From: an uncultured Prochlorococcus sp.
GTDB lineage: Bacteria; Cyanobacteriota; Cyanobacteriia; PCC-6307; Cyanobiaceae
Assembly (NCBI GenBank): GCA_902572075.1
Contig: CACGER010000003.1
Location: forward strand, 1-64,000
Length of the DNA: 64,000 nucleotides
Reading direction: 5' to 3'
The notes beneath the pieces are model-generated. The model did not search any database, was not told where the DNA came from, and was given only the letters and a program-made list of their open reading frames with translations. Position numbers and translations under genes: made by a program. Below are positions 32,116 to 43,805 of this stretch, piece after piece. Each line of letters starts with the position of its first letter. The first letter of the stretch is position 1.

Positions 32116-33144
32116 ATGAAATTAAAGAATTATTTAAAAAGGCTATTTTTTACTTCAGTGACATTATCGCTACTTCTAAATAATCAACCTGTAAATTCTG
32201 CAGAGAAAGAGGTTAGGTTATTTTCTGGTAGACATTACAATACAGATAAAGAGGTTTATCAAAAATTTCAAGAACAAACTGGCATCAAAGTTAGATATAT
32301 AGAAACAGATGGAAAAGCTATAATTGAGCGCTTAAAAAGAGAGGGTAAAAATTCTCAGGCTGATTTAGTAATTCTTGTTGATGCAGCAAGAATTGAAAAT
32401 GCATCAAAGGCAAATTTATTTCAAAAAATTAATTCAAATATTCTAGAAAATAGTGTTCCAAATAATTTAAGAGATCCTAGAAATAAATGGTTTGGCCTTA
32501 CTAGGCGATTAAGGGTAATCATCACAAATCCGGATATTGTGGATATTACAAAAATCAAAAATTTTGAGGATCTAACCAATCCTTCTTTTAAAGGAAAAGT
32601 ATGTCTAAGAAATAGAAAAAGTCCTTATAATCAATCTTTGGTTTCTAATCAAATAGCAAAGAAAGGCGTTGGCCAAACAAAAATTTGGCTTAAGGGTTTG
32701 ATATCAAATGTCTCCACTCCCTATTTTTCTGGAGATTCTTCATTAATAAGAGCTGTAGGGCAGGGAACGTGCGGTATTGGAATCGTTAATCAATATTATG
32801 TCGCAAGGATGCTTGATGGAGTTAAAGGCCCAAGAGATGCTTCTTTAGCAGAAAAAATAAAATTAATAATACCCAATCCTGCGCATGTAAATATAACTGC
32901 TGGGGGCATATATAAATATGCAGAAAACAAGACTGAGGCTATTAAACTTCTTGAATATTTAGCTTCTAGTGAAGGTAGTCAAGGTTTAGCTAATAAAACT
33001 TATGAGCACCCTTTAAAGGAATCAAGTCAAAATAGAATTGTTAGTAAATTTGGAGATTTCACTCCAGATAATGTGACTATAAAAGAAATTGGCAAATTCA
33101 ATAGTAAGGCAATAGAAATAATGAAAGAAACTGGTTGGAATTAA
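32116..33144 (+). CDS. futA: Periplasmic ferric-iron-binding protein of an ABC transporter
   Basis: A 342-residue substrate-binding protein of the FutA/IdiA/FbpA family. An N-terminal signal peptide (about residues 1-29) is followed by VRLFSGRHYNTDKEVYQKF, with the first iron-binding tyrosine. Near residue 235 is NQYYVARML, containing the C-lobe tyrosine pair. Other family segments are GKVCLRNRKSPYNQSLVSNQ (about 162-181) and HVNITAGGIYKYAEN. It should bind Fe3+ in the periplasm; some cyanobacterial homologues also protect photosystem II. The permease and ATPase genes are not next to it. It precedes tRNA-Ser and an accessory region. Confidence 0.95.
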   Translation: MKLKNYLKRLFFTSVTLSLLLNNQPVNSAEKEVRLFSGRHYNTDKEVYQKFQEQTGIKVRYIETDGKAIIERLKREGKNSQADLVILVDAARIENASKANLFQKINSNILENSVPNNLRDPRNKWFGLTRRLRVIITNPDIVDITKIKNFEDLTNPSFKGKVCLRNRKSPYNQSLVSNQIAKKGVGQTKIWLKGLISNVSTPYFSGDSSLIRAVGQGTCGIGIVNQYYVARMLDGVKGPRDASLAEKIKLIIPNPAHVNITAGGIYKYAENKTEAIKLLEYLASSEGSQGLANKTYEHPLKESSQNRIVSKFGDFTPDNVTIKEIGKFNSKAIEIMKETGWN

Positions 33145-33198: not shown

Positions 33199-33283
33199 GG
33201 AGAGGTGGCTGAGTGGTCGAAAGCGAACGACTCGAAATCGTTTAATAGGTAACTATTCGTGGGTTCGAATCCCACCCTCTCCG
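33199..33283 (+). tRNA. tRNA-Ser (anticodon CGA)
   Basis: A class II tRNA with a 7-bp acceptor GGAGAGG/CCTCTCC (one end base-paired through the terminal positions), D arm, an anticodon arm AACGA-CTCGAAA-TCGTT with anticodon CGA, a long variable arm (TAATAGGTAACTATTC) and T arm GTGGG-TTCGAAT-CCCAC. CCA is not encoded. Its 3' end points into the accessory region that starts immediately after it. A degenerate copy of its last 24 bases occurs at 35064-35087. Confidence 0.96.
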
Positions 33284-33720
33284 TAATACACCAATTTTGC
33301 ATGCAGACTTATGGTGTTATAAGATCTCCAATTAGACTGCAATTACAGGATAGTTGAGAAAAATACTTATGGTCAGATAACTTTTTGATTTTGAAATATA
33401 AGGTATTTCTAGGGAAAATATGGGTAATAAATAAGTGGTACATGTTTTATTTCCATGGGGTATGAAAAGCACCCATGGGGTACATAAAAATACCAGTGCG
33501 ATTTCAGCAATTTAGGAGATAGTTCAAGTGACACCTTCTTATGATGGGGGACAAGAAATTTTGATGTGGTACAGAATATTTTGATGGGGTTTATTGGTTG
33601 ACAGTTGATCTAAAATTTAGAATATACATCTATTTTATATGGTTTATTTAGGTGATATTTAGAGAACGCGAGAATGATATAGACTTTCAGTTACATCAAA
33701 TTTCAAAATTTTTTTCGGAC
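33284..33720 (+). other. Non-coding DNA between tRNA-Ser and the lyase gene
   Basis: About 440 bases without a convincing gene. The striking content is a set of G-rich 12-mers at 33431-33593 (separate entry). The rest is mixed-composition DNA, visibly less AT-rich than the neighbouring core gaps. An in-frame TTG-started extension of the lyase gene begins at 33652, but it precedes the signal peptide and is not considered coding. Confidence 0.6.
33431..33593 (+). repeat. Direct repeats (iterons) with 20-bp spacing, probable integrase arm sites
   Basis: Six related 12-mers start at 33431 (ATAAGTGGTACA), 33453 (CCATGGGGTATG), 33473 (CCATGGGGTACA), 33542 (TGATGGGGGACA), 33562 (TGATGTGGTACA) and 33582 (TGATGGGGTTTA). 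The consensus is close to NNATGGGGTACA. Starts 33453/33473 and 33542/33562/33582 are exactly 20 bp apart, so the copies lie on one face of the helix. Repeated TGGGGTACA-type elements next to a tRNA 3' end resemble arm-type binding sites of P4-like tyrosine recombinases. No recombinase gene is present nearby. Confidence 0.6.
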
Positions 33721-34665
33721 ATGAAAAAACTTGTATACCTTTTTCTCATATTGATGTGTTTTACCAGTGGTAATTCATACTCATGGGAAAAGGTACCTGT
33801 TCCAGACTCTGTAGATAAAAAAACAAAATCCCCTTGGAATTTCTTTGAGGACTTTGAAAATGAAAATGTAGGAAGATTGACAACCAATAAATTTACGACT
33901 AACGATAAGGGTACAGGTCTCAAACCATTTGAAATTAAAGAAGACCCTGATGGTAATACCTATCTTGCAGTGACAGTAAAAGATGGATGGAATGTTGATC
34001 AGAAAGGGTGGACAAAGGAAACAACTGAAAGAGCAGAATTTGAGGTCAAACCCAAAAGAGTATTAGGTAAAGAAATATGGATCAGTTTCAAAAAGAGACT
34101 TCCAGAGGATTTTACTCATATCGACGACAGAGTATTATTTTTTCAATTCAAAAATATGATATCAACAGGAAAAGTCAGTCCTCTGATAGGATTACGTTAT
34201 AAAAAAAATGGAAATAGATTAAAAATAGGAGGACAGACCGGAGGAAATGCACGTCGATCTATGAGTCAAAAGGAAAAGGACCTTTATCGTATTGATACAA
34301 AGTATAAAAACTATGAAGGAAATTGGGTTCAAAGATGGGAAAAGTTCAGAAGTCAATATAAAGACAGAGATGTTGATGGTACAGCAAAAGTGACTCCATT
34401 AGGGGAATGGAGTACATATAAGATTGGAATCTATAATACAAGAGATAACGATGGTTTTGTCAGAGTCTATAAGGATGGGGAATTGATATTTGATTATAAT
34501 GGTGTCACTTATGATTGGCGTGGAAAGTATTATCAAAGTCATATCAGACTTGGTGTCTATCGAGATCGAGTAGTTGGAGTGAGTTACCCCGACCAAACGA
34601 TTCACTTTGATGATTTCATTGTTGTTTCAGATGAAAAGACTTTAGATCAGATACTCGCCAAATAG
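33721..34665 (+). CDS. Secreted polysaccharide lyase (heparin lyase I/PL-like, PF14099 type)
   Basis: A 314-residue protein from the ATG at 33721, chosen because it begins MKKLVYLFLILMCFTSG, a good signal peptide; the longer TTG-started frame (33652) would bury it. The mature part is beta-rich. Around residue 100 TTERAEFEVKPK matches the E-R-x-E-F/L motif of PF14099-type lyases (families such as PL13, PL14 and PL20), followed by EIWISFKKRLPEDF. Near the end SHIRLGVYRDRV matches the family's (F/R)-K-x-G-(I/V)-Y-R strand. It should be exported and cut an anionic polysaccharide by beta-elimination. It stands alone beside tRNA-Ser in DNA of different composition, so it was probably acquired. Substrate (glucuronan, alginate, other) is unknown, and a non-catalytic binding role is possible. 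Confidence 0.7.
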   Translation: MKKLVYLFLILMCFTSGNSYSWEKVPVPDSVDKKTKSPWNFFEDFENENVGRLTTNKFTTNDKGTGLKPFEIKEDPDGNTYLAVTVKDGWNVDQKGWTKETTERAEFEVKPKRVLGKEIWISFKKRLPEDFTHIDDRVLFFQFKNMISTGKVSPLIGLRYKKNGNRLKIGGQTGGNARRSMSQKEKDLYRIDTKYKNYEGNWVQRWEKFRSQYKDRDVDGTAKVTPLGEWSTYKIGIYNTRDNDGFVRVYKDGELIFDYNGVTYDWRGKYYQSHIRLGVYRDRVVGVSYPDQTIHFDDFIVVSDEKTLDQILAK

Positions 34666-34876
34666 TCTGCGATCTTTTGATGAGCAGGTTCAAGTGGGTG
34701 TTTCTCGGTCGTGTTGATAAAGTGTTTTATTGCAGTTCTAATCATGATTTCTCAGATAGAAATGTTTATATTTTTTGATTGATTTCTTATCTTTACTGTC
34801 GGAAAGTAATAGATTATTCTTTTTATAAAGAACTTGAAAATAGTCAGACTTAGATTCCAATATAGTAGCATACAAA

Positions 34877-34899
34877 CTCAGTTATATCAAAGAACTGAG
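34877..34899. repeat. Inverted repeat, 7-bp stem
   Basis: CTCAGTT (34877-34883) pairs with AACTGAG (34893-34899) around a 9-nt loop. It lies about 210 nt beyond the lyase stop codon and lacks a T-run, so it is not an obvious terminator. Confidence 0.4.
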
Positions 34900-34943
34900 G
34901 GAATTTAGAGTATTATTTTAGCGTTCCCTAACACCTAAAAAAG

Positions 34944-34972
34944 TGTTATTTTTGGGGGAATACAAAATAACA
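34944..34972. repeat. Inverted repeat, 9-bp stem
   Basis: TGTTATTTT (34944-34952) and AAAATAACA (34964-34972) pair perfectly around TGGGGGAATAC. It is followed by TTTTCC and preceded by an A-run, so it could end transcription on either strand, although the stem itself is AT-rich. Confidence 0.45.
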
Positions 34973-35063
34973 TTTTCCGATTTGGTGTTGTAGAAAATGG
35001 AGTCTTTTTCAGCAGTTTGATCTTTTATTTCTAAGATTACTGATGAATACTGGGGTCAATTCT

Positions 35064-35087
35064 GAGTTCAGATTACACCCTTTCCGT
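35064..35087 (+). repeat. Degenerate copy of the tRNA-Ser 3' end (candidate att site)
   Basis: These 24 bases match the last 24 bases of the tRNA-Ser gene region (33261-33284) at 18 positions. The final 12 bases, CACCCTTTCCGT, match at 11 of 12. They are in the same orientation, about 1.8 kb downstream of the tRNA, as expected for the distal attachment site of an element integrated at the tRNA 3' end. Divergence implies an old event or chance similarity. Confidence 0.42.
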
Positions 35088-35198
35088 TTTAATAGGATAA
35101 TTAGGAATCTTAATTTTTTGATTTTTTATTCAAATTGCAGTGATAAATAAGAGTTCTAAGAAATATCAATTTATGTATAGTTGGTTTTAATTTTATGT

Positions 35199-35274
35199 GT
35201 GTTGGTGGATGTGTTGGTGGATATTTTTAATGTGTTGGTGGGTATGTTTTTGACAAGGTTTGGTGTTGGTAGAT
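35199..35274 (+). repeat. Four GTGTTGGTGGAT-type direct repeats
   Basis: Copies start at 35199 (GTGTTGGTGGAT), 35211 (identical), 35232 (GTGTTGGTGGGT) and 35263 (GTGTTGGTAGAT). Two copies are directly abutting and the spacing then widens. They lie just outside the candidate distal att site. The short G/T-rich unit and the irregular spacing resemble integrase arm sites of a second type and not a CRISPR array or a coding repeat. Confidence 0.5.
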
Positions 35275-35339
35275 TCCTCAAGATCACTTGTTATTAAATG
35301 AGTTTTTCAGATTCTTCTGGAGGAAAGAAGGTATCACCT

Positions 35340-35570
35340 TCAGTTAATTTTCTTCTCAAACTCTTTATATGAAGATTGCATTTGACCTGAATTTTCTACT
35401 AGATCATCTTTATCTAAACCTCTTATTTTTCTCCATCTTGAATACATATATCCAAGATAGATTCCTTGCATAAAGTTTTTTGCTCCATGTTCTAGAAGAT
35501 TTTTTGAAAATTTATCATTAAATTTTCCACTTTCTAATAATTCTTTCTGCCAGTTTATGTTTTCTGTCAT
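35340..35570 (-). CDS. Small hypothetical protein of the accessory region
   Basis: A 76-residue protein beginning MTENINWQKELLESGKFNDK, with a helical, charged composition and the segment AKNFMQGIYLGYMYSRWRK (about residues 30-48). No family recognised. Its ATG overlaps the stop of the preceding small ORF (35567-35704) by four bases (ATGA), so it is likely translated by coupling. Compact coupled genes like this are common in cyanophages and their satellites, but that origin is an inference. Confidence 0.5.
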   Translation of the reverse strand: MTENINWQKELLESGKFNDKFSKNLLEHGAKNFMQGIYLGYMYSRWRKIRGLDKDDLVENSGQMQSSYKEFEKKIN

Positions 35571-35751
35571 TGCTGTTGCTGTTCCTCCTGTATTTTCTTC
35601 AGTCTTTCGTATTCATCATTTAGAACTCCTAAGCGCCATGAATCTTTTAATCCTTTTATACCATCCATTAAGTGTTTTGCATCTGAAGGAGAACGTGACT
35701 TCATGTGTAAGAAATTTTCTGCCAAAATTTGTCATCCCATTTAGTGCTCAT
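35567..35751 (-). pseudogene. Small gene apparently split by a one-base frameshift
   Basis: Two minus-strand frames abut: 35751-35701 (16 codons, MSTKWDDKFWQKISYT) and 35704-35567 (45 codons, starting MKSRSPSDAKHLMDGIKGLK). The second frame is open further upstream, reading LAENFLH before its ATG. Adding one base to the four-T run (plus-strand A's at 35724-35727) would join them as a 61-residue protein running ...WDDKFLAENFLHMKSRSP..., which reads as a single folded sequence. Its TGA overlaps the next gene's ATG. Either the gene is broken, the second frame alone is used, or the base is a sequencing error. Confidence 0.45.
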
Positions 35752-35798
35752 ACTTTCTCTGTATACTTTTTGAATTCATCAAAAGTGATTTTAATCAT
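35748..35798 (-). CDS. 16-codon ORF coupled to the frameshifted gene
   Basis: MIKITFDEFKKYTEKV followed by TGA, whose ATGA overlaps the start of the next small frame. It is too short to support alone; it is recorded because the chain of three ATGA overlaps (35750, 35703 and 35569) is unusual. It may be a leader peptide or the remnant of a larger gene. Confidence 0.25.
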   Translation of the reverse strand: MIKITFDEFKKYTEKV

Positions 35799-35881
35799 TA
35801 TCGTTTGAATAAGAAATAGTATGTTTTACCTTATAAGTATAGTTTTTCTAACAAAAAGTATTAATAAAAGTGAAATAAACA

Positions 35882-35905
35882 AAGAGGGAATTTTTTTGCC
35901 CTCTT
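35882..35905. terminator. Hairpin terminator
   Basis: AAGAGGG (35882-35888) and CCCTCTT (35899-35905) form a 7-bp stem around AATTTTTTTG. The T-run lies in the loop and A's precede the stem, so it is best read as a terminator for minus-strand transcription from about 36007, or as a stable 3' end. Confidence 0.5.
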
Positions 35906-35906
35906 C

Positions 35907-35956
35907 GAGTCTTATGCACTTCGCTGTCCACAAAGTCGATGAAGTGCTTTTGACTC
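35907..35956. ncRNA. Candidate structured RNA: long symmetric hairpin
   Basis: GAGTC (35907-35911) pairs with GACTC (35952-35956) and GCACTTC (35916-35922) with GAAGTGC (35941-35947). The two helices are separated by a symmetric 4x4 internal loop (TTAT/TTTT) and closed by an 18-nt apical loop. The segment is much richer in G and C than the DNA around it. It could be a small RNA on either strand, or structure inside the decayed minus-strand frame that ends at 35912. No known RNA family was recognised. Confidence 0.4.
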
Positions 35957-36007
35957 CTCAATTATTTCTACTCCTGCTGAATCGGAAAAGATAGTGGCGA
36001 CAACCGC
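35912..36007 (-). pseudogene. Start-less open frame of 31 codons
   Basis: On the minus strand a frame reads AVVATIFSDSAGVEIIEESK and then ALHRLCGQRSA before TAA at 35912-35914. It has a natural protein-like composition but no ATG, GTG or TTG; an in-frame TAG lies three codons upstream. It may be the C-terminal remnant of a lost gene, or coincidental with the hairpin at 35907-35956. Confidence 0.3.
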
Positions 36008-36080
36008 ATAGCACTAACACTCGGGTATTAATACTCTATTAATTTTAATTGAATAGGAGGATAATTAAGAAATATAGATA

Positions 36081-36087
36081 AAGGAGG
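36081..36087 (+). promoter_or_regulatory. Strong ribosome binding site
   Basis: AAGGAGG lies 4 nt before the ATG at 36092, close to a perfect anti-16S match, in a genome where most genes show none. A second AGGAGG is at 36055-36060 with no start codon in reach. Efficient translation of the small protein is implied. Confidence 0.6.
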
Positions 36088-36091
36088 CTTT

Positions 36092-36941: not shown

Positions 36942-37013
36942 TTGAGATTGATTAATTTTGTTTCAATTGCTTATAATTAAAAAATTATTTTGGAAACAGT
37001 AAGAAGTTTTTAT

Positions 37014-38837
37014 ATGAGGTTGGTTTTTTACTTATTTTTGATTAGTCAATTATTCAACTTCATTGGAGTATTTGCAGAAAAATTAAGAGAAGATACATCG
37101 GGATTAAATACTATTAATTGGAAAAAGATAGAGGAAAATAAATCTAAACCAATAAAAAAGATTATCTGGAGATCCTATAAGAATGATGAAGCTTATTTTG
37201 GGAATAAAAATAAAGAAGATTCAATTTCAGGCACCACTGACTTATCAAACGAAGAAAGAATATATAAACCCACAAAAATATCACGTTCTTCTATTACCGA
37301 AATTGAACCTTTTTTGCCACTTAATAATTTCCTTGACCATGAAGATTTACAAAGCTCTATTAGATGGAAATCATCTTTTGACGGAGGTATAGGAGGTGGG
37401 ACCGGTCAGCAAAATACTTCATTTGTTTTTGATTACGGAATTTCAGATTCTTCCCTTATTTCTCTCTATGTAACTGGAGCCGATGATGACTTATACAACT
37501 TAGTAGAAGGACAGAAAATTAACTATTATTGGCAAAGTTATGCACTTTCTTTTAAGAAAAAATTAATAGATGAGGAAGTGTTCGATTTTGGATTGTCATT
37601 AGTATCTACTCTTGAATATTGGAGGCATGCTAGTGGATCTGAAACCTCAAAAAGTATATATAATCAAAGAGATAGTTCCCATGGTAAAGACAAATTTGAA
37701 AATTTAGTTGGTGCTTTATCTTTTCCTATCTCAAAAAATTTAAATGAAAACTTTACCGCTTTAATTGTCCCAGGTATTACATTTTTGCCTGAGAATTTAG
37801 GTTCTAAAGGAATTGGTAAAAACTCTTATGGTAATAATTTCTATATTGGAAGTGGTATTGTCTTTGATATGGCAGAAGATCTTAATCTTCTTCTCTCATA
37901 TACGATTCCTCTTGGTCCAGGTAATAATTATTTTGATAGTAATTTAAATTACTCTAGAAAGCCTATATATAGTTTTGGTTTGGGATGGGATGTTAATCCT
38001 AAGATTGGAATTGAAGGTAAAATAACTAATTCATATGGGGCTTCTCCTTCTACTGGAATACTTACTATCCCATCAGATAACCTTCCACTGTATTCTGCTA
38101 ATTTAACTTATAGGCCCAATGGAGAGGACACATACCTTAATACTCTCAATGAGAGAGATAGATTGATTAGTAATGGCGGAATTACTGTTAATAATGCCTT
38201 AATGCCCAGAGCTGGAAATTCACAAATTAATATAAGCTCTGATAGTAAAGGAAATTTGTTTGGTTCTTATTATTATTCTTTATCAAATTTATTCCAATTA
38301 GAACTTCTAAATATTGGCAGTTTTAATGATTTAAACTTTAGAGGAAGTAAAAATTCAGATTTATATTCAACTTACTTAGATGAAAATAATCTTAATTTTA
38401 GGTTAGGCGGCAAGCTTCTAATATTTAGTCCTCAAAAAAACGACCTTTGTTGGCTTGCATCAAGAGTATCCGTTGGTAGAAATGGTGATACTAATCAAGG
38501 GTATTTATTCACAGAATTTATGAATACTTTTAGATTAAGAAATTGGTTGTCATTTAATATTAGTCCCAAATACTTTTTTAGTGGTGTCGAAAGTTTTGGA
38601 GGGATCGGCTTCTCAAGTTATATAAATTTATCAGATAATTTGATGCTTATTCCAGAAATAAATACTTCAATTAAAAACGATTCAGATTTAAACTCTACTC
38701 TTGCTATAAGATATTCTTTCTCACCTGAAAAGTCATTAGATTTGTATTATTCTAATGCTGCGGGAGTTCAAGATATTGGACATCTTCTGAAAGATAATGA
38801 ATATAGATTTGGAATTAAGTTGAATTTTTTATATTAA
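37014..38837 (+). CDS. Predicted outer-membrane beta-barrel protein
   Basis: A protein of about 607 residues from the ATG at 37014; an upstream TTG at 36990 adds eight residues. The ATG start gives a signal peptide, MRLVFYLFLISQLFNFIGVF, ending near an A-E site. The mature part has a short polar region and then alternating strands with aromatic ends, for example EDLNLLLSYTIPLGPGNNYF and YSFGLGWDVNPKIGIEG. The last strand ends in a hydrophobic tyrosine (NEYRFGIKLNFLY), as usual for barrel proteins recognised by BamA. The general organisation recalls the YjbH/DUF940 exopolysaccharide porin-like family, but I cannot confirm it. Function unknown. Confidence 0.6.
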   Translation: MRLVFYLFLISQLFNFIGVFAEKLREDTSGLNTINWKKIEENKSKPIKKIIWRSYKNDEAYFGNKNKEDSISGTTDLSNEERIYKPTKISRSSITEIEPFLPLNNFLDHEDLQSSIRWKSSFDGGIGGGTGQQNTSFVFDYGISDSSLISLYVTGADDDLYNLVEGQKINYYWQSYALSFKKKLIDEEVFDFGLSLVSTLEYWRHASGSETSKSIYNQRDSSHGKDKFENLVGALSFPISKNLNENFTALIVPGITFLPENLGSKGIGKNSYGNNFYIGSGIVFDMAEDLNLLLSYTIPLGPGNNYFDSNLNYSRKPIYSFGLGWDVNPKIGIEGKITNSYGASPSTGILTIPSDNLPLYSANLTYRPNGEDTYLNTLNERDRLISNGGITVNNALMPRAGNSQINISSDSKGNLFGSYYYSLSNLFQLELLNIGSFNDLNFRGSKNSDLYSTYLDENNLNFRLGGKLLIFSPQKNDLCWLASRVSVGRNGDTNQGYLFTEFMNTFRLRNWLSFNISPKYFFSGVESFGGIGFSSYINLSDNLMLIPEINTSIKNDSDLNSTLAIRYSFSPEKSLDLYYSNAAGVQDIGHLLKDNEYRFGIKLNFLY

Positions 38838-41362: not shown

Positions 41363-42745
41363 TTAATCTAAATCAGGCATTTCTAGAGCTGGTTCACTCT
41401 TTCTGTCGATTCCTTTTTCGAAACCAGCAGCGGCTGCTCTAGCACGTCCAGCATGCCAAAGGTGACCGATGAATGTAAACCATCCTAGGAAGAATTGAGC
41501 TGCAGCTAACCACTGTCTTAAGTTAACGAAGTTAACAGCATTAGGCTCTGTAATGATTCCACCAACAGAGTTGATAGAAGCGTTAGGAGCATGAGTCATA
41601 TATTCAGCAGCTCTTCTTACCTGCCAAGGCTGAATATCATTCTGGATTTTCTCAAGGCTCAAACCGTTAGGTCCTCTTAAAGGCTCTAACCATGGACCTC
41701 TGAAATCCCAAAATCTCATTGTTTCGCCACCAAATATAATTTCACCAGTAGGAGATCTCATGAGATACTTACCTAGACCTGTTGGTCCCATTGTTGAACC
41801 TACGTTAGCTCCAATTCTTTGATCTCTCACTAGGAAAGTAAAGCTTTGAGCCTGTGAAGCTTCAGCATTTGTTGGACCATAAAATTCTGAAGGGTAAGCA
41901 GTGTTGTTAAACCAAATGAATGTTGAAGCAATAAAACTTGCTACACAAATTCCACCAAGAGCGTAACTTAATAGTCCTTCACCATTCCAGATAAAAGCTC
42001 TTCTTGCCCATCCAAAAGGTTTGGTAAAGATATGGAATATTCCTCCAATGATTGCAGTAATACCCACGTAAACATGTCCACCAACAATATCTTCGATGGA
42101 GTTAACACCGATTATTGAACCAGCTCCTCCCCATGGAGATCTGAATAAATAACCAAGAATAACTCTCGGATCCAAGGTTGGGTTTACAAGTCTGACTTCA
42201 CCACCACCTGGTGCCCATGTGTCATATGCACCGCCAATAAAACACCAGTTTACTGACCATGCTAGTGCACCTACACCTAAAACAATCAAATGATATCCGA
42301 GGATATTTGTCATTTGATTTTTATCTCTCCAATCGGTTGAGAAAAATGGAAAATCTTCTTCAAGTTTTTCTGGACCTGCTAATGAATGGTAAATACCACC
42401 AAAACCAAGTACAGCGGAAGCTATCAAATGAACCACGCCTGCTTGGAAGAAAGGCATGATATCAGTAACTTCACCACCTGGGCCTATCCCATAGCCAAAC
42501 ATTGCAACGTGTGGCATACAGATTAAACCTTGCTCCCACATTGGTTTATCAAAAGTAAAATGATTAACCTCAAAGAGCATCATTGCTCCCGCCCAAAAGA
42601 CTATTAGTCCAGAGTGAGCAATGTGAGCTCCTAATAAACGTCCAGATAAATTGATTAATCTAGCGTTACCTACATACCAGGCATAACCAGTTTCCTCAAT
42701 ACTTTGGTTTGGAGCTCTTAATAAATTATTAAAGGGCGTTTCCAC
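41363..42745 (-). CDS. psbC: Photosystem II CP43 chlorophyll protein
   Basis: The 460-residue inner antenna protein CP43, with six membrane helices and the large lumenal loop that contacts the oxygen-evolving cluster. The start is GTG at 42745, giving [20 protein letters not shown]: a strong AGGAGG (42755-42760) lies 9 nt upstream, and the extension to ATG 42772 has no counterpart in other CP43 proteins. It overlaps the 3' end of psbD by 17 nt, the conserved psbD-psbC arrangement, so both are translated from one mRNA. It contains the [17 protein letters not shown] loop that carries the conserved manganese-site residues. Confidence 0.98.
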
Positions 42746-43805
42746 GTGGAAGAACCTCCTCAGGGAATACAAAGTTTTCGTGTGGTTGATCCACAGAAGA
42801 CATCCATGCTCGCATACCTTCGTTCAAAAGTATATTTTTTGTATAGAAAGTTTCAAATTCTGGATCTTCTGCTGCACGGATTTCTTGGCTTACGAAATCA
42901 TAAGCTCTTAAGTTTAGTGCTAGGCCGACAATACCAATTGAAGATGTCCACATACCCATAACAGGTACAAATAGCATCAAGAAATGTAAGAAACGCTTGT
43001 TTGAGAAAGCAATACCGAAGATTTGACTCCAAAATCTATTCGCTGTAATCATTGAATAAGTTTCTTCTTCTTGAGTTGGGTCAAAAGCTCTAAATGTTGA
43101 ACTTTGAACCTTACCATCTGTATAAATACTTGTATCTTCGTACAAAGTATTTTGTACTGTAGCTCCATGAATAGCGCAAAGTAGAGCACCACCAAGAATT
43201 CCAGCAACACCCATCATGTGAAATGGATTTAAAGTAATATTATGAAAACCTTGAATGAACAGAATGTAACGGAAGATTGCTGCAACACCGAATGAAGGTG
43301 CGAAGAACCAACTATGCTGTCCTAAAGGATAAATAAGGAAAATACTTGTAAATACTGCAATTACTGCTGAGAATGCTAAAGCGTTGTATGGTCTAATTCC
43401 AACAAGGCCAGCAATTTCAAACTGACGAAGCATAAAACCAATTAGGCCAAATACTCCATGTAATGCAACGAAGTTCCAAAGTCCACCAAGCTGTAGCCAT
43501 CTTACGAAACTACCTTGGGCTTCAGGACCCCATAAAAATAGAAGACTGTGTCCCATGGCATCACCAGGGGTACTTACAGCTGCTGTTAAAAAGTTACAAC
43601 CTTCAAGGTATGAGCTTGCAACTCCATGTGTGTACCATGAGGTAACAAATGTTGTTCCGACGAACCAACCACCTATAGCAAGATATGCACAAGGAAGTAA
43701 AAGTAGTCCGGACCAACCAATAAATACAAAGCGGTCGCGCTTCAACCAATCATCAAGGACATCAAACCATCCTCTTTGTGGGGCGCTACCAACTGCGATC
43801 GTCAT
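42729..43805 (-). CDS. psbD: Photosystem II D2 reaction-centre protein
   Basis: The 358-residue D2 subunit, which with D1 holds the P680 chlorophylls, pheophytin and quinone Q-A. It starts [20 protein letters not shown] and ends [17 protein letters not shown]. The five-helix pattern, the [17 protein letters not shown] stretch and [20 protein letters not shown] (iron/quinone-site histidines) are unmistakable. It is the first gene of the psbDC unit and is divergent from ycf4 with a gap of about 180 nt that must hold the light-responsive promoter. No single promoter element is clear enough to list. Confidence 0.99.
42755..42760 (-). promoter_or_regulatory. Shine-Dalgarno fixing the psbC start
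   Basis: AGGAGG on the minus strand, 9 nt before the GTG at 42745 and inside the psbD coding sequence. It decides between the GTG and the upstream ATG at 42772 as the psbC start. Confidence 0.85.

Follow-up and report, generated by a model that had tools for sequence, protein, structure and literature searches.

A PF14099 polysaccharide-lyase-like gene as the probable sole cargo of a small islet at the 3' end of a Prochlorococcus tRNA-Ser gene

The window, which is the whole 64,000-nucleotide stretch of uncultured Prochlorococcus sp. DNA analysed here, carries a small segment inserted at the end of a tRNA-Ser(CGA) gene and containing one recognisable ORF. The features of the segment are the following:

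33199-33283, + strand: tRNA-Ser(CGA), found by ARAGORN and Rfam (RF00005, 63.1 bits); its 3' end is the left attachment site
33262-33283, + strand: attL, GGTTCGAATCCCACCCTCTCCG, the 3' end of the tRNA, from repeat and junction comparison
33284-35086, no strand: islet of 1803 bp at the tRNA 3' end with the lyase gene as sole recognisable gene, from the direct repeat, the comparison of occupied and empty strains and the ORF list
33455-33595, + strand: five RTGKGG(T)AC-like near-copies (33455, 33475, 33544, 33564, 33584) in 20-bp steps, assessed by shuffling
33721-34665, + strand: PF14099 polysaccharide-lyase-like gene of 314 aa, predicted exported, from Pfam, profile and dN/dS
33721-33783, + strand: predicted Sec signal peptide, residues 1-21, from sequence and hydropathy only
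35065-35086, + strand: attR, AGTTCAGATTACACCCTTTCCG, a degenerate copy of the tRNA 3' end (CACCCTCTCCG in relatives), from repeat match and junction comparison

The lyase ORF extends from an ATG to a TAG codon. An in-frame GTG is present 69 nt upstream of the ATG, but is disfavoured as start, because the loci diverge upstream of about -17 and have the MKKLVYLF start in common. The N-terminus, MKKLVYLFLILMCFTSGNSYS-W, features a Sec-type hydrophobic core by hydropathy, and no lipobox was recognised in it by eye. Residues 77-298 match positions 30-208 of the 210 of the Pfam model PF14099 (E 6.7e-16), with a score of 59.2 bits that is twice the curated cut-off of 29.9; relatives L003, L012, L039, L053 and L101 are likewise above the cut-off. 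Values of dN/dS between diverged lyase copies range from 0.2 to 0.43, and the ORF is therefore taken as a real gene, maintained under purifying selection. No further credible ORF was found between the tRNA and position 35086. The preliminary description of the locus, a complete PF14099-type lyase bearing a signal peptide and standing alone beside tRNA-Ser, is borne out on all these points.

Profile A2, built from 18 diverse family members, was searched against PDB sequences, and matched the glucuronan lyase TrGL (PL20, 2zzj) with E 1.2e-14 and heparin lyase I (HepI, PL13) with E 4e-5 to 5e-4; values for alginate lyases were 0.3 or worse. Searches made with the single protein or its close family alone returned only a spurious de novo protein, and a broad profile was needed. 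Arg104, Trp230, Gly278 and Tyr280 are invariant in the 18 members, and Glu106 and Gln142 are conserved in more than 90% of them. The motifs of the putative active site are:

34030-34038, + strand: Arg104-Ala-Glu106, R-x-E motif, from conservation in the 18 members
34144-34152, + strand: Gln142-Phe-Lys144, the Q-x-H motif of HepI with Lys replacing His, from conservation and profile alignment
34558-34560, + strand: Tyr280, from its invariance and the profile alignment with HepI Tyr357 and TrGL Tyr200

In the printed alignments Arg104, Gln142, Lys144 and Tyr280 share columns with Arg83, Gln149, His151 and Tyr357 of HepI (3imn chain numbering), and with His53, Gln91, Ile93 and Tyr200 of TrGL. The printed positions agree with the residues that we take to be catalytic, namely His151 and Tyr357 in HepI, and His53, Gln91 and Tyr200 in TrGL. 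TrGL is the best match by profile and, with a weak model, also by structure, and its Gln and Tyr are found also here, but His53 and Ile93 stand where the window family has Arg104 and Lys144, and identity in the structural alignment is 14%. Heparin lyase I (3ikw, 3imn, 9grw) aligns at the R-A-E-F, Q-x-[HK] and G-I-Y-R motifs, and differs by the catalytic His and by about 90 extra residues (thumb region), absent here. The protein belongs neither to PL13, since Tyr280 is kept and the catalytic His of Q-x-H is Lys144, nor to PL20, since Gln and Tyr are kept and the position of His53 is Arg104. It falls similarly outside PL7/PL14 (R-x-E-L, Q-I/V-H and Y-x-K-A-G-x-Y motifs), as no significant profile match was obtained and Q-x-H reads Q-x-K.

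AlphaFold gave a weak model (pLDDT 37 with 13 close sequences; pLDDT 44 and pTM 0.50 after trimming, with 15 sequences). Foldseek placed 2zzj first among the PDB matches of this model (E 1.6e-6, TM-score 0.41), followed by PL7, ulvan and PL36 lyases; given the pLDDT of 44, the result is only supporting. The PL36 alginate lyase Aly36B (6kcw), which is among the top matches of the weak model, is a jelly-roll lyase reported to have a catalytic Lys (Lys143; PMC8618178), and may resemble the window lyase in fold.

Lys144 replaces His151 of HepI throughout the subfamily of the window gene, in every close homologue, as expected if the protein were a catalytically dead or repurposed jelly-roll glycan-binding protein, in which the fold is kept and the lyase activity is gone. 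Copies of a second Prochlorococcus family type, type B, which have a 23-aa insert, are also devoid of the Gln, having Glu in place of Gln142 (FFEFKN), and the dN/dS values reported above are not very low. However, Arg104, Gln142 and Tyr280 are all kept in the window protein. Q-x-K is moreover found in the distant PF14099 members L129, L137, L138 and L142, and is consequently not a private loss of the window subfamily. A Lys reportedly serves as both catalytic base and acid in a PL36 jelly-roll lyase (Dong et al. 2019, as cited in PMC8618178), and Glu acts as neutraliser in heparinase II (PMC12088678). Loss of activity is hence judged unlikely, with a chance that still deserves attention. Loss of the catalytic residues and membership of a non-lyase family were the two outcomes that the preliminary description named as counting against it: the PF14099 assignment holds and Arg, Gln and Tyr stay in place; the His of HepI does not, being a Lys. 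With Gln142 and Tyr280 kept and Lys144 at the His column, neutraliser and tyrosine appear to be retained and the histidine to be a lysine, and the window gene encodes a lyase-like protein for which activity is plausible.

At the far end of the islet, attR matches the tRNA 3' end at 16 of 22 positions in the window, and at 17 of 22 in L031, L033 and L089; maxima in shuffled sequences were 12-13 on average, and up to 15-16. A repeat search with a minimum length of 14 overlooked the att copies. Occupied and empty flanks are base-exact at both tRNA-Ser sites. At the CGA site, the lyase-free L184 and L186 and the occupied L031 and L089 share TTAATTTATCGTTTCTGG after the repeat, and TTAATTTATCGTTTCTGGAAGTCCC, which follows the repeat in the latter, is the sequence after the tRNA in the former. 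At the GCT site, where the repeat is the GCT tRNA's own 3' end (CTCCCTCTCCGT), the empty L174 and L175 and the occupied L028 share GATTTATTTAGAAAATTTTT, and the post-repeat GATTTATTTAGAAAATTTTTAATTAATATTTG of L028 is exactly the sequence following the tRNA in L175. In genome G152 the lyase islet is bounded by the tRNA-Asn 3' end (GCGCCCGGGGAGT); the right flanks of empty tRNA-Asn sites are diverged. The window genome's own tRNA-Ser(GCT) site is empty (L174), and no genome among those compared has the lyase gene at both Ser sites. Islets may occur in tandem, as in L090 and L185; in L090 a 1777-bp lyase islet, of the same size as that in L089, lies behind another islet. The hallmarks of a tRNA-targeted integrative element are found as a tRNA 3'-end copy at the far end, degenerate in the window and cleaner in relatives, and, for the relatives, as the empty sites just described. 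The case at the window's exact spot rests on the same-site relatives, because its own attR is the most degenerate and none of the strains read offers an empty site that its right flank matches exactly.

The same region could be regarded as an ordinary variable stretch by a tRNA, shaped by homologous recombination between flanking genes and bearing repeats by chance, with no site-specific islet. The futA-cobQ interval is indeed variable in all strains, the window attR is imperfect, and recombination within ORFs is seen. Yet at each of the host RNAs (Ser-CGA, Ser-GCT, Asn, tmRNA) the repeat corresponds to the 3' end of that very RNA, with a match that at most sites is well in excess of that of shuffled sequences. 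The junctions of empty and occupied sites are base-exact, and an islet keeps its size at different places in an array, with 1777 bp in both L089 and L090 and 1278 bp in both L039 and L040. All this makes the reading as an ordinary variable stretch very unlikely. The tRNA is the integration site, not merely a neighbour, and the lyase gene is a mobile cargo, shared with SAR11.

The ORF list of the window islet includes no integrase, and none was tied to the tRNA-Ser sites, though integrase-family proteins were found in 15 of 15 genomes searched. The five RTGKGG(T)AC-like copies, a number reached in 0 of 2000 shuffles for a motif chosen after the fact, are possible arm sites of a recombinase; one relative has a single copy on its right side. 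Iterated end repeats are clear in L025, L003, L090 and L185, but absent or one-sided in the window, L188 and the SAR11 islets, and are therefore not claimed to be general. Islet-end motifs seen in this set are AGGGGATA and RTGKGG.

Numerous further small islets, 0.7-4.2 kb in length and with tRNA-end repeats, occupy the two tRNA-Ser sites in L090, L185, L026, L176, L177 and L188, and several of them feature element-specific short repeats at both ends. Sister islets encode a restriction-modification set and an AlpA-like regulator (L185), an MrcB-like protein (L090), an arylsulfotransferase and a sulfotransferase (L026), and a carbamoyltransferase and an AlgX/SGNH protein (L176). In the window, a second islet seemingly begins directly after attR (35087-36090), with a right end that was not found; it includes three TGTTGGTGG repeats at 35200, 35212 and 35233, a motif present at both ends of the L185 islet, and a 76-aa ORF (35340-35570, - strand) similar to one encoded by the first L090 islet. 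On the other side of the tRNA, the futA-like iron-binding-protein gene at 32116-33144 occurs among strains in two diverged allelic forms, one with 94-99% and the other with 62-65% identity to that of the window, which suggests gene replacement beside the integration site.

The lyase ORF has a history distinct from that of its flanks, best seen in one tract:

33704-34647, + strand: 944-bp tract, 99.2% identical to tRNA-Ser(GCT) copies in other strains (e.g. L025), from identity comparison

The tract is bounded almost exactly by the ORF, and outside it the flanks are specific for the CGA site. The window ORF is 98-99% identical to copies at the GCT site, and 87% identical to copies at its own site, although these have a left flank of 96% identity; with L031, at the same site, identity is 96.1% over 7.6 kb of left flank, 86% for the islets and 87% for the ORFs. 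The lyase ORFs of L031 and L033 are identical, although the DNA of their left flanks agrees at 82%. In the window copy, the bases up to 879 resemble the GCT type and those from 915 the CGA type, and L029 alternates between the two types five times. Informative sites fall in long tracts, and 0 of 2000 permutations had as few runs. Such mosaics, along with the higher identity to the other site than to the same site, indicate that ORFs are exchanged between sites and between islets with different ends.

A lyase relative was found in 44 of the 266 Prochlorococcus-genus genomes (14 of 87 among the good ones), and in none of the 58 remaining genera covered by 400 genomes of the family, in keeping with the initial remark that the gene is unusual in a streamlined phototroph. 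In the genome of the window, assembled to 70% completeness, no second copy was found; the nearest named relatives of that genome are single cells of Prochlorococcus. The preliminary description had also proposed a phage depolymerase as source, and the gene could be a phage remnant or cargo that began in a cyanophage as a depolymerase, either of the tail or secreted: tRNA genes often serve for phage integration, and jelly-roll folds occur in depolymerases too. This origin is not supported, as neither the protein, nor the family profile, nor the two islet-end DNA patterns had relatives in PHROGs, 50,697 phage records and IMG/VR, while the protein has its own signal peptide and no phage gene adjoins it; capture from a phage is highly improbable. 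A plasmid search for lyase relatives also gave nothing.

Close relatives are found in six Pelagibacteraceae (SAR11) single cells, and in 4 of 297 Pelagibacteraceae genomes, in which weaker PF14099-like relatives are common. The SAR11 gene abuts the tmRNA 3' end, in single-gene islets of 1.2-1.3 kb. The core CAGAACGCCCC is present at both ends of islets of 1212 bp (L037) and 1278 bp (L039); the latter adjoins the tmRNA in L039, and is fourth in the core series in L040. In L035 and L036 a 28-nt copy of the tmRNA end follows the lyase stop codon. Prochlorococcus type B copies are 91-92% identical at the DNA level to SAR11 copies over 743-950 bp, and those of type C 84%. The lyase tree forces at least two host changes between Prochlorococcus and SAR11. 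Contamination of single-cell genomes, conceivable since the same samples yielded many of the single amplified genomes on record, can be given hardly any credence as the cause of this likeness, since the SAR11 copies lie beside an alphaproteobacterial tmRNA on 34-536 kb contigs, a type-B-like islet recurs in two SAR11 cells at different array positions, and copies of the two groups are 91-92% and not 100% identical, on separate starred branches. To judge from identities and tree, Prochlorococcus and SAR11 have the gene in common by recent transfer, with at least two exchanges; the wider diversity in SAR11 hints at this group as the source.

No RNA gene was found as neighbour of the Prochlorococcus type B and C copies. 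The surroundings of the type B copies (L145-L150) are variable and abound in short exported ORFs of the MKRLLL type, without a nearby RNA gene. At two other loci a glutamine-II riboswitch is located a few hundred bases or less from a lyase copy (L078:6069-6126, L147:8318-8373). PF14099-like exported proteins look common in SAR11; the SAR11 genome G779 has four PF14099 genes, two of which are adjacent (G779:C5:23525-25103, G779:C4:17419-18018).

Two more observations concern the rest of the window. A 615-aa predicted exported protein (36990-38837) has no Pfam match and is 44-78% identical between strains, with neighbour genes at 85-100%; it is a candidate hypervariable surface protein. An Rfam match to IsrR, the RNA antisense to isiA (150.7 bits, 42148-42331), lies on the opposite strand of a highly conserved, psbC-like 469-aa ORF (41363-42772, - strand). 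As isiA is related to psbC, the match may reflect this kinship, as a cross-hit, instead of a true antisense RNA.

Taken together, the data are best read as an exported jelly-roll PF14099 lyase whose gene is probably the single cargo of a small islet of the integrative, non-autonomous kind. Insertion and excision at the conserved RNA 3' end would be the work of a tyrosine recombinase provided in trans. Once exported, the protein would cleave by beta-elimination a polysaccharide that contains uronate: Tyr280 would be the acid/base, the carboxylate would be held by Gln142 and Arg104, and Lys144 would have the role usually taken by His. The benefit may be conditional, and probably lies in editing an acidic surface glycan of the cell itself or of a neighbour, which could be a phage receptor or a grazing target; use of dissolved acidic glycans would be an alternative. 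Glycan editing is favoured by association, because the sister islets encode defence and surface-glycan genes. Each of the substrates proposed in the preliminary description, the cell's own envelope, a phage receptor or an algal glycan, is conceivable. More tentatively, integrase-less single-gene islets at tRNA and tmRNA 3' ends might form a cassette system of streamlined ocean bacteria, in which the same ORF recombines between differently targeted frames and crosses between Prochlorococcus and SAR11; both phyla would then draw their exported glycan-editing and defence genes from one pool.

In oligotrophic ocean waters, where Prochlorococcus and SAR11 dominate, transfers of genes between the two groups are difficult to detect. 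With a 2% divergence criterion, a survey published in 2025 and covering thousands of single-cell genomes reported one recent inter-order transfer, that of a phn operon within SAR11-like groups (PMC12416821). The lyase gene, with 8-9% DNA divergence between phyla, lies outside that criterion, and has a visible vehicle and defined attachment sites in both hosts. Two questions become testable now: by what means islands of the smallest size are mobilised, and whether a phototroph with a streamlined genome edits or digests acidic polysaccharides.

Islands with tRNA-end repeats are already known, single-CDS members included. Flexible genomic island fGI-2 of the Methylophilaceae is an additive island delimited by tRNA 3'-end repeats (PMC10872708); like the lyase islets, it shows repeated copies of a tRNA 3' end, grows by further insertions at one site, and has members as small as 330 bp with a single CDS. 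The lyase islets differ in that one identified gene is found at four RNA genes in two phyla, with exchange of the ORF between sites. Prochlorococcus tycheposons (Hackl et al. 2023), as described in PMC10872708, resemble the islets for integration at tRNA ends and for cargo genes, but are 4-200 kb long and have a tyrosine recombinase, whereas the lyase islets measure 1.4-1.8 kb and have none; the window islet, with 1.8 kb and no integrase ORF, is not a tycheposon. Set apart from these elements on the basis of that description, what is new is one exported-enzyme gene as solo cargo, at four RNA genes and in two phyla, with shuffling of the ORF among them.
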